Both the position numbers and the translations under genes were made by a program. Positions 15,612-22,057 of a DNA stretch of 22,268 nt are shown piece by piece. This stretch comes from Gammaproteobacteria bacterium (lineage in GTDB: Bacteria > Pseudomonadota > Gammaproteobacteria > Chromatiales > Chromatiaceae): positions 1 to 22,268 of the forward strand of contig JAUVEG010000002.1 of NCBI GenBank assembly GCA_030594925.1. Direction: 5' to 3'. The notes beneath the pieces are model-generated. The model was given only the letters and a program-made list of their open reading frames with translations, did no database searches and was not told the origin of the DNA. Every line of letters starts with the position of its first letter. Position 1 is the stretch's first letter.

Positions 15612-16526
15612 ATGTTTTCAAGCTCAATACAGAAAAAAATATCTCTCCATAAGCTGGCAACGCTTTTTATCCTGCTGCTCGTTGTGGCGATGCTCTCTGC
15701 GGGCATGGCCGGAAGAATTGGTTATCAGCTTGGCTATCACAACGCCAGCATTCCAGAGGAATCAGAATCTGAAATTGCATCACTCCAGGATGTGGTCCGC
15801 AAAGAGCGCAGGAATCTTCAACTGGTCAAGGTGGAAACAGAAAATAATCTTGATGCTCTGGCAATTAAATTGGGATCGTTGCAGGCGAAATTGATGCGTC
15901 TGGAGGCAATTGGAGAGCGTCTTGTCTCTGCGATTGATGTTGATATCGATAAAGAGACCTTCAAGAAGGACCCTGGAATGGGACGCGCCTCGGATGGTGA
16001 AGAGGGTCGGACTCAAACCTCGATTGATCTGCTGATGGGGATTGAGCGCTTAAGCGATCAATTGGCGTCCCAGGACAAGCAGCTGACTACGCTGGAAAAA
16101 GTATTGATCGAACGCGACGTGAAAAAGGAGGTTGTGCCTTCTGGTATGCCGGTGAAAGGGTACATCTCATCGGGGTACGGGGGCAGGGTCCATCCGATAT
16201 CCGGAAAATACAAGGGGCATAAGGGGGTTGATATTCCCGGAAAAACCGGTACCAAAATCAAGGCTGTTGCCGGTGGGGTAGTCGTCGCGTCCGGGCGTGT
16301 CTCCGGCTATGGGAATTTGGTTGAGGTCAAGCATGCTGATGGGTTTAGCACGCTTTATGCGCACAACAAAAAGAATATTGTAAAGAAAGGCGATATTATC
16401 GAGAAAGGCGAGTCTGTTGCGCTACTTGGCAGCACCGGACGCTCGACCGGACCGCATGTCCATTTTGAAGTGCGCAAGCATGGTAAGCCCGTCAACCCTA
16501 TGCGCTATATCAACACGATTAACTGA
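15612..16526 (+). CDS. Membrane-anchored M23 family metallopeptidase
   Basis: 304 residues from ATG 15612 (GAGGAAAAG upstream); a TTG at 15594 is in frame but less likely. One transmembrane helix at about 15-36 is followed by a GYQLGYHN stretch and a probable coiled coil (about 53-105). A second helical stretch at about 135-170 precedes a LytM/M23 domain at about 180-300. Zinc and catalytic residues are intact: H203 and D207 (GHKGVDIP), H251 (LYAHN), and H282/H284 (PHVHFEV). It is therefore probably an active periplasmic DD-endopeptidase cutting peptidoglycan cross-links, not a degenerate NlpD/EnvC-type activator. M23 genes of this type often sit between dciA and secA; here secA is absent. 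Confidence 0.92.
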   Translation: MFSSSIQKKISLHKLATLFILLLVVAMLSAGMAGRIGYQLGYHNASIPEESESEIASLQDVVRKERRNLQLVKVETENNLDALAIKLGSLQAKLMRLEAIGERLVSAIDVDIDKETFKKDPGMGRASDGEEGRTQTSIDLLMGIERLSDQLASQDKQLTTLEKVLIERDVKKEVVPSGMPVKGYISSGYGGRVHPISGKYKGHKGVDIPGKTGTKIKAVAGGVVVASGRVSGYGNLVEVKHADGFSTLYAHNKKNIVKKGDIIEKGESVALLGSTGRSTGPHVHFEVRKHGKPVNPMRYINTIN

Positions 16527-16588
16527 TTGCTTGTAATTTCTCTCACATCCCACACATCTTGGTACTTTAATTTCTGCCTCATCCCTTA

Positions 16589-16658
16589 CCACGGAACATA
16601 CGGATAACACGGAAATATTTTTCCGTTCCTTCTGTCTCTCCCGTGGTTTGTTTTTTTC
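16589..16658 (+). terminator. Nested hairpin followed by a T-rich tract downstream of the M23 gene
   Basis: Outer arms CCACGG (16589-16594) and CCGTGG (16641-16646) enclose a stronger inner hairpin, ACGGAAA 16609-16615 with TTTCCGT 16620-16626 and a four-base loop. The 3' arm is followed by a T-rich tract (16647-16658). It begins about 60 bp after the M23 stop, so it is a plausible terminator, though the outer CCACGGA-type arms resemble dispersed intergenic repeats. Confidence 0.5.
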
Positions 16659-16714
16659 TCTTCTCGTGACGTATGGGTTTTTCGCAAGCGGGTTCTTCTG
16701 CGACCTGAAAATGC

Positions 16715-17150
16715 AAAGGAAGCTCTGATCAACTCGCGCCCAACCCCTCTAGCAGAGCATTCTCACAAGTTTTCTACGGGGGAAGGGGCTATCTTCAATG
16801 GTTTAGGGGCGTCAGGCGTAACTTCTCAATAAGCCCGTGCAATAATTGAGTCTGTGCGGGGTCGGGACCAGCATTTCAGGGACGCGTGAATACATCCCTG
16901 GTCGCTTCCGGCATCCTGCCTCTGGCGACATTAATACATCCATGTATGTCATAAGCTCTGATAAAACATCCCTGTTTTCGACCGCCATGGAAGGCGGAAG
17001 TGCCGAAAATGCAGAAGCATTTTTTCGGCCTACAGCCCTGAAACGTAAATCCCAACCCTGCCTACTGCACAGGGTTATTGAGATGTTACCGTCAGGCTCA
17101 CCCTTTCCCCCTGCGCCCCTGATTCCATCGGTTTATTCAGGATTTCCTTA
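16715..17150 (+). mobile_element. Family-1 miniature element, copy A (interrupted by a second element)
   Basis: The left end AGGAAGCTCTGAT (16717-16729) and the right end, read inward on the minus strand as TAAGGAAATCCTGAATAA, match the ends of the other three copies. Internal landmarks are GCTCTG 16722-16727 pairing with CAGAGC 16753-16758, and GGGGGAAGGG from 16778 pairing with CCCTTTCCCCC 17101-17111. The second pair is separated by an unrelated 272-bp insertion. Removing that insertion and one copy of its 8-bp duplication leaves about 156 bp, close to copies B and D. The flanking TA is kept on the right (17149-17150) but is AA on the left. Confidence 0.75.
16818..17089. mobile_element. 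Family-2 miniature element nested in copy A, with 8-bp target duplication
   Basis: CGTCAGGC occurs directly on both sides (16810-16817 and 17090-17097). The enclosed 272 bp have terminal inverted repeats: 16818-16844 matches the reverse complement of 17063-17089 at 23 of 27 positions, and at 14 of the outermost 15, starting GTAAC. The interior has small hairpins and no transposase: CTCAAT/ATTGAG (16825, 16845), ATACATCCATGTAT (16934-16947), AAAACA/TGTTTT (16963-16978), CCGCC/GGCGG (16982-16997), GCCGAAAATGC with GCATTTTTTCGGC (17002-17029), and AACCCTG/CAGGGTT (17054-17076). GTAA ends with 8-bp duplications are known for IS66-family elements, so an IS66-mobilised MITE is a fair guess. Confidence 0.75.
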
Positions 17151-17159
17151 GCCATCTTA

Positions 17160-17636
17160 TTAATCGATAGCACCGCCAACTTTGTCCAGGGTGCGTTGAA
17201 AAAATCCTTTGCCCTCGTGGTCAGGTACTGAGATAACGATGCGCTCGTTTTCATCATCGATCTTCTGATCAGGCTCATAATCTCCGGCAATACGATCAAG
17301 TAGTCCGTCATCACTGAAATAGAGTGTGAGGTTCTTGTGTACCAGCTCTTCACCTGGCACCTGTAGCCAATAGATGTAATCCCAGCGCTGCTGATGAAAT
17401 ACATCAACGAAAGAGGGGGTTCCCAACGTCAGGCGAACCTCTTCCATTGACATGCCGGGTTCAAGTTTGTCAAGAGCTTCACTATTAAGAATGTTGCCTT
17501 GCTGAATAGTCTGTTTGTGCACAAAAGAGATTTTTGAAAATGGCTTTTGAGCAACGCCTTTGACAATTTTTTCTGAGGTGGCACAGCCACCGGTCAGTAA
17601 ACTGACTGTAATGATGGAAAAGAGATGCCTGTGCAT
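17160..17636 (-). CDS. bamE: Outer membrane protein assembly factor BamE (SmpA/OmlA lipoprotein)
   Basis: Small outer-membrane lipoprotein of the Bam complex that inserts beta-barrel proteins. ATG 17636 is chosen because it begins a short signal peptide, MHRHLFSIITVSLLTGGC, whose lipobox LTGGC gives lipidated Cys18. The frame stays open upstream, but there it only translates a repeat. The mature part contains the SmpA/OmlA core: PGMSMEEVRLTLGTPSFVDVF, then RWDYIYWLQVPG and TLYFSDDGLLDRIAGDY. At 158 residues it is longer than E. coli BamE (113), with a charged tail. No strong ribosome-binding site is seen. It is divergent from fur, an arrangement known for omlA-fur in Pseudomonas. Confidence 0.93.
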   Translation of the reverse strand: MHRHLFSIITVSLLTGGCATSEKIVKGVAQKPFSKISFVHKQTIQQGNILNSEALDKLEPGMSMEEVRLTLGTPSFVDVFHQQRWDYIYWLQVPGEELVHKNLTLYFSDDGLLDRIAGDYEPDQKIDDENERIVISVPDHEGKGFFQRTLDKVGGAID

Positions 17637-21171: not shown

Positions 21172-21373
21172 TAGGGAGCCTCTGAATAAGTCCATGGGAT
21201 GGGTGTTCGGGGGAAGGGCGATCTGGATGTGCATTATACCCTTTGATAGATATTCCTTCCCCCGTAGACTAACTTGCAGGAATGCTCTGATTTGAGGAGC
21301 GAAGCTTCCGCTCCTTGCTCACGCCCCTCATCTACGTCCATGTAGGCGAAGCGACCGGATCAGAGCTTTCCTA
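21172..21373 (+). mobile_element. Family-1 miniature element, copy C, upstream of nadK
   Basis: TA at both ends (21172-21173 and 21372-21373). The left terminus is TAGGGAGCCTCTGAATAA and the right terminus ends CAGAGCTTTCCTA. Stem one pairs 21208-21217 with 21255-21264 over ten perfect pairs (CGGGGGAAGG/CCTTCCCCCG). Stem two pairs GCTCTGAT 21284-21291 with ATCAGAGC 21359-21366. Stem two encloses extra material absent from the shorter copies: AGGAGCG/CGCTCCT (21295-21315) and CTACGTCCATGTAG (21332-21345). At 202 bp it is longer than copies B and D. Confidence 0.78.
21233..21238 (-). promoter_or_regulatory. TATAAT box inside repeat copy C, candidate nadK promoter
   Basis: A perfect TATAAT reads toward nadK on the minus strand, about 127 bp before its TTG start, in the A/T-rich loop of the repeat's G/C stem. 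No good -35 is found at 16-18 bases. Promoter activity is speculative. Confidence 0.25.
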
Positions 21374-21856: not shown

Positions 21857-22054
21857 TATGTTTACCTGTGTTATGTATTTTGTGAAGGACATCCTGGCTT
21901 GTTAGGGATGCCCCGGATGAATTGACGGGATGGGGGTTTGGGGGAAGGGAAAAGCAAATCCTCGCTAGAACTTACTGATAATTGCCCCTTCCCCCATAGA
22001 AAAACTTGCAAGGCAGTTCTGATAGAAGCGCGAAGCGATTCAATCAGAGCTTCC
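21857..22054 (-). other. 198-bp soxY-soxZ spacer occupied by a repeat
   Basis: soxY and soxZ normally lie within a few tens of bases in one operon. Here most of the spacer is family-1 copy D; about 46 bp next to soxZ, including its ribosome-binding site, are unique. No promoter for soxZ stands out. Confidence 0.8.
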
Positions 22055-22057
22055 TTA
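21903..22057 (-). mobile_element. Family-1 miniature element, copy D, between soxY and soxZ
   Basis: TA at both ends (21903-21904 and 22056-22057). On the minus strand it starts TAAGGAAGCTCTGATT, shows the inner stem GAAGCG-type hairpin closed by ATCAG/CTGAT, then AAAAACTTGC-like spacer and the strong stem 21939-21949 with 21986-21996 (TGGGGGAAGGG/CCCTTCCCCCA, 11 perfect pairs). It ends with GGGGCATCCCTA. At 155 bp it matches repaired copy A in length. Its end abuts, and supplies the last base of, the soxY stop codon. Confidence 0.75.

Follow-up and report, generated by a model that had tools for sequence, protein, structure and literature searches.

Bacterial MITEs are short and gene-less, have inverted ends and a duplicated target and occur in many copies, and nested MITEs are a known phenomenon in bacteria. 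The IS66 subgroup closest to the elements considered below, which lacks the two small accessory ORFs, is presumably the ISBst12-like one. Neither a nested bacterial IS66-type MITE nor a DruA-IS66 transposon is announced in open-access titles or abstract openings among the matches listed. ISPpa5a and ISPpa7, two published IS66 elements, are listed with 8 bp in the part of PMC3281130 considered here. In the corresponding part of PMC3733652, A. variabilis and H. neapolitanus are reported to have REP dimers within longer palindromes, and T. roseum to have REP elements within small ones. Against this background a nested MITE alone is a modest result; the locus described here adds to it the identification of a coding partner that carries a DruA-domain gene, and evidence for the exchange of ends and cores between elements. 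The locus lies in a stretch of 22,268 nucleotides, referred to as the window, from a gammaproteobacterial metagenome-assembled genome (MAG).

Anatomy of the nested insertion

The source MAG of the window (G000; 1.78 Mb, 330 contigs, 72% complete; the window is contig C15) carries the insertion between the 3' ends of two convergent genes, which encode an M23 peptidase and a BamE-domain protein (Table 1). The initial annotation had described a 272-bp segment with 27-bp terminal inverted repeats matching at 23 of 27 positions and a perfect 8-bp duplication, and its coordinates proved exact to the base. None of 20000 shuffles of the insert reached 23/27, the shuffle maximum being 16. The interrupted family-1 repeat has the tips AGGAAG...TTTCCT and measures 152 bp after subtraction of the insert and one duplication, which agrees with the 156-bp restored element of the initial annotation once 2 bases are added on each side. 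Likewise, the second family-1 hairpin, whose arms had been put about 33 bp apart after excision, has a measured loop of 33 bp.

Table 1. Features of the nested repeat region and its neighbouring genes, in window coordinates.
Feature	Position	Strand	Remarks
M23 peptidase	ORF end 16526		Left neighbour of the repeat region
Family-1 repeat, interrupted (ca. 152 bp without insert)	16717..17148	.	Matches elsewhere, loop measurements
Family 1, first hairpin	16722..16758	+	By eye, likewise placed in other copies
Second family-1 hairpin, left arm (loop = insertion site)	16774..16788	+	
Target-site duplication CGTCAGGC, left copy	16810..16817	+	
Family-2 element, non-autonomous IS66-type MITE, core F	16818..17089	.	
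Family-2 27-bp terminal inverted repeat, left	16818..16844	+	
51-bp hairpin module A	16900..16950	+	Edge uncertain by 1-2 bases; in 1 of 5 aligned sister copies
52-bp hairpin module B	16979..17030	+	In 2 of 5 aligned sister copies
Family-2 27-bp terminal inverted repeat, right	17063..17089	-	
Target-site duplication CGTCAGGC, right copy	17090..17097	+	
Second family-1 hairpin, right arm	17100..17113	+	
BamE-domain protein	ORF end 17160	-	Convergent with the M23 peptidase gene

The insert, referred to as family 2, contains no transposase gene of its own; the two overlapping ORFs of at least 90 aa, 16846-17151 (+) and 17075-17407 (-), both cross its right end. An Rfam search in E-value mode over 16500-17300 returned a single match, far under the gathering score and outside the element.

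With its left part as query, family 1 gave 20 BLAST matches in G000, the window copy included, three of them in the window's contig; here and for family 2 several matches may belong to one element. Copies read with their flanks mostly show, by eye, the first hairpin followed by the long second one, and the loop of the latter spans 32-38 bp in the 13 loci, out of 20, where it could be measured. Of 26 rows of family-1 junctions, 16 have TA on the left and 17 have it on the right; an identical 2-mer stands on both sides in nine rows and a matching 3-mer in none, all these counts including reversed and spurious pairings. Further family-1 matches occur on the minus strand of the window at 21981-22056 and 21255-21289.

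The order of events, family 1 first and family 2 second, rests on the position of the duplication within family 1 and on the paralogous family-1 copies, no orthologous empty site having been found. The empty site sought by the initial annotation exists in paralogous form as insert-free family-1 copies; in the aligned orthologous intergenic spaces of G002, G003 and G004 family 1 and family 2 are both absent. The observation is real, and its reading as a nested insertion, as first annotated, holds. In a fragmented MAG of 330 contigs, with several repeat copies at contig ends, an assembler might have fused two repeats and so created the nested arrangement; such an artefact is very improbable here, as a false join would not produce a perfect 8-bp duplication at the exact element tips, and the genes on either side are arranged collinearly in G002, G003 and G004. 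The orthologous site in G004 is occupied by a different, unrelated long palindrome (L151:1343-1495, AGTCGTTGTCCATAAATAACC...), and the intergenic space may be a hot spot for repeats.

Family 2 and its coding partner

Family 2 is represented in G000 by at least 65 BLAST matches, the window copy included (40 of 135 candidates scored). Its tip pattern GTAACWTCTCAATAA, with up to two mismatches, matches 144 times (78 + 66), compared with 7 times (3 + 4) for the reversed control. Left and right tips with up to four mismatches, 40-420 bp apart, were paired in a sample of G000 loci picked by tip or element match and drawn among the matches listed. At the exact boundary, 17 of the 61 candidate pairings have identical flanking 8-mers and four agree at 7 of 8 positions, while with the boundary displaced or slid 1-4 bases away (16 settings) no setting has more than one pairing that reaches 7/8. 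After resolution of overlaps 48 tip pairs remain, 17 with perfect and four with 7/8 duplications, corresponding to 21 distinct duplications; the other 27 pairs lack a duplication of this quality, some of them being surely spurious and others old. The initial annotation had staked its reading on further copies with these boundaries and 8-bp duplications. Such copies are present in G000, the family-2 tip pairs carrying 21 different duplications at 7-8/8.

The gene-less element also recurs in other genomes, with at least 33 matches in G000, 31 in G001, 36 in G002, 33 in G003 and 26 in G004 (at least, in each case; 20 candidates scored per genome) and none in G005. Outside the genus it matches in four genomes, G009, G010, G016 and G033, and among the matches listed these are short inner pieces only in G009, G010 and G033 and 27 bases in G016. 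A nearly empty shell of 57 bp with the perfect duplication TTCTCCCT was noted at L067:1501-1557. In G000, tips paired at a distance of 1.2-1.5 kb (C106 and C41) were considered as full elements and rejected, as they enclose ordinary genes and have no duplication. A pair of IS66-type tips 1460 bp apart (L106:327-1786) flanks an alcohol-dehydrogenase-type gene (PF08240, PF00107) without a duplication and probably consists of two MITE remnants.

Within G000, given as 72% complete, neither the PF03050 profile nor the transposase of locus L146 found a match; the latter is present in G003, which belongs to the same genus. PF03050 matches occur in 8 of 21 genomes searched, and among 20 loci examined close tip matches are confined to L132/L146, L137/L148 and L145/L162, the remaining loci having no tips, single loose ones (up to four mismatches) or different GTAA pairs. 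The element of L146 (199-2913) measures 2715 bp from tip to tip, its tips being mutually identical at 22 of 25 positions, and contains ORFs for a 299-aa DruA-domain protein (276-1175; PF14236, E 4.1e-39) and a 568-aa IS66-type transposase (1182-2888; PF03050, E 1.9e-20, over the cut-off). Its contig sequence is identical letter for letter to DAOUQU010000207.1, and its flanks show no duplication (2/8). The inverted ends are common to the window element (tip GTAACTTCTCAATAAGCCCGTGCA) and L146 (tip GTAACTTCTCAATAAGTCCGTGCA), so that the IS66-like parent suspected in the initial annotation has a same-genus counterpart with matching ends and a PF03050 domain.

The same two-gene layout is found on a Desulfobulbaceae contig (L165, 427-3002) with tips matching at 24 of 25 positions and the perfect duplication GATTCTTG; its best segment is 69% identical to L146, and its transposase likewise exceeds the PF03050 cut-off (E 2.5e-18). 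One long transposase ORF lies between the tips in both L162:128-1862 (tips 22/25, duplication 7/8) and L148:531-2346 (tips 25/25, perfect duplication CGTAAATC). A class-wide search with the L146 transposase matched only 4 of 369 sampled genomes at E <= 1e-60, G003 and G008 not being among these, and the coding element is therefore uncommon in this sample; L148 alone among five loci from that search combines such tips with a duplication.

A DruA-domain (PF14236) gene between IS66-type tips is thus seen at L146:276-1175 and at L165:505-1383, the latter with a perfect 8-bp duplication. This gene is possibly a relative of the defence gene DruA; the PADLOC DruA model gives E 1.5e-8 and 2e-6. The further genes of a Druantia defence system do not show between the tips, where this gene and the transposase are the only conspicuous ones. 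The presence of a DruA-domain gene within an IS66-type transposon bears on the possible origin of DruA. Two Phage_integrase-domain (tyrosine recombinase) ORFs adjoin the Desulfobulbaceae element (L165:2988-4893); the nearer one extends into its right end and was probably cut by the element.

We therefore regard family 2, with high confidence, as a MITE of a DruA + IS66-type transposon; this MITE entered an older family-1 repeat at its loop, and 8 bp of target were copied. In the proposed scenario an IS66-type transposase would be supplied in trans, in the source genome or in an ancestor, and would bind the GTAAC[AT]TCTCAATAA tips of family 2; the element would then insert into the family-1 loop, and the 8 bp of target would be copied. 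Judged from the shared ends, the mover was presumably a transposase of the L146 kind. The 272 bp might instead be a long REP/BIME-like hairpin repeat grown in place, with flanking 8-mers alike by chance, given that the insert is strongly palindromic (predicted RNA fold -105 kcal/mol) and holds hairpin modules also present elsewhere. We consider this hardly credible in view of the 21 different duplications, each of 7-8/8, located exactly at the tips, and of the coding elements that carry the same or similar ends.

Cores and modules inside the shells

Between the same IS66-type tips, with perfect duplications outside them, lie at least six hairpin cores of dissimilar sequence; BLAST at E 0.1 matches none of them to another. 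Tips with up to four mismatches were tallied within 110 bases of each core in G000 loci selected for the most part through their tips or core F; the one-sided counts include chance matches. Tips on both sides, one side and neither side were found 5, 4 and 5 times for core B, 8, 6 and 6 times for core C, 9, 5 and 10 times for core D, 2, 2 and 5 times for core E, 3, 2 and 3 times for a 102-bp core, and 11, 11 and 2 times for core F. From the places without tips it follows that the five cores other than F also exist free.

Two of these cores are linked to another type of gene. Y1_Tnp genes are present in 7 of 11 genomes searched, and 12 loci were examined among the 21 matches listed. At three of them (L235, L237 and L232) both sides of the gene bear core B, core C or, inside a core-C-like hairpin, a family-1-type module, while the other nine have no such hairpins on both sides. 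We read the Y1_Tnp genes of these three loci as RAYTs. In the part of PMC3116915 considered here, REPs are described as standing on both sides of their RAYT gene. Cores B and C, which flank RAYT-like genes as REPs do, are accordingly best read as REP-like, and by this analogy they would be repeats formerly spread by RAYT enzymes.

The insert itself is composite, a feature absent from the initial annotation. In an alignment of the window copy with five other core-F copies, picked to represent forms that have the blocks and forms that lack them, it contains two clean extra blocks, A and B, of which A is shared with one and B with two of the others. We infer that modules A and B were gained by the window copy rather than lost by its sister copies, and there are probably three levels of nesting.

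In the loci examined from G000 to G004, 27 sequences that differ over module A and its 15 neighbouring bases on either side contain the module; the window copy is no separate row among them, being identical to another over this stretch. By their flanks 12 belong to core F, eight to elements with GTAACTATTCAGC-type ends and seven to family-1-type hairpins; of these seven, L210 and L211 do not fit on the left side. TCC[ACG]T stands immediately to the left of the module in 24 and [AG]TA immediately to its right in 26 of the 27 sequences, and in module-A-free carriers the two sides are joined, as ACATCCATGTAGGC in the family-1-type hairpin of L232 and as ACATCC[AC]TGTA in core F. In all three types of carrier module A sits at one and the same junction. 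The carriers with GTAACTATTCAGC ends have duplications of their own, in six pairs at eight loci, of which three are perfect, two match at 7/8 and one at 6/8.

One tentative explanation would see in module A a site-specific mobile hairpin of a kind not yet described, which would enter TACATCC[AC]TGTA mini-hairpin loops and bring a fresh copy of the target with it; if so, hairpins could nest in hairpins without limit, in carriers spread by unrelated enzymes. For the inner layers only, a similarly doubtful alternative is that A and B are ancestral and were lost from the sister copies by slippage between CATCC[AC]TG repeats. Such repeats do stand on both sides of module A, and in copy C92 another stretch flanked by two CATCC[AC]TG motifs is missing, as slippage predicts; loss within core F, however, leaves the like junction of module A in two other carriers unexplained. 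Module A may have spread by its own movement or through slippage and recombination. The data provide evidence of an exchange of ends and cores among elements, with one small module recurrent at one junction, and they suggest separate histories for the ends of a MITE and its inner hairpins. This matters for the classification of intergenic repeats, since families differ when named by core and when named by ends.

Comparison with known systems

The locus provides a single genome in which layered insertions can be read in order and the likely enzyme can be named for one layer. The elements resemble the IS66 family in their GTA tips, 8-bp duplication and PF03050 transposase. They differ from it in the DruA-domain gene ahead of the transposase in L146 and L165 and in the NCBIfam IS66 model (NF033517), which gives 101-142 bits on the three transposases tested, below its cut-off of 180. 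Family 2 corresponds to bacterial MITEs in being short, gene-less and multicopy with inverted ends and a duplicated target; what sets it apart is that a single set of ends holds several hairpin cores unlike one another. In contrast to this locus, the outer palindromes of PMC3733652 are given no 8-bp duplication or coding partner in section 7 of that paper. The likeness to REPINs and RAYTs, as far as described in the part of PMC3116915 considered, lies in the three of 12 loci where core B, core C or the module flanks a Y1_Tnp gene; the difference is that the hairpin pairs occur here also inside an IS66-type shell.
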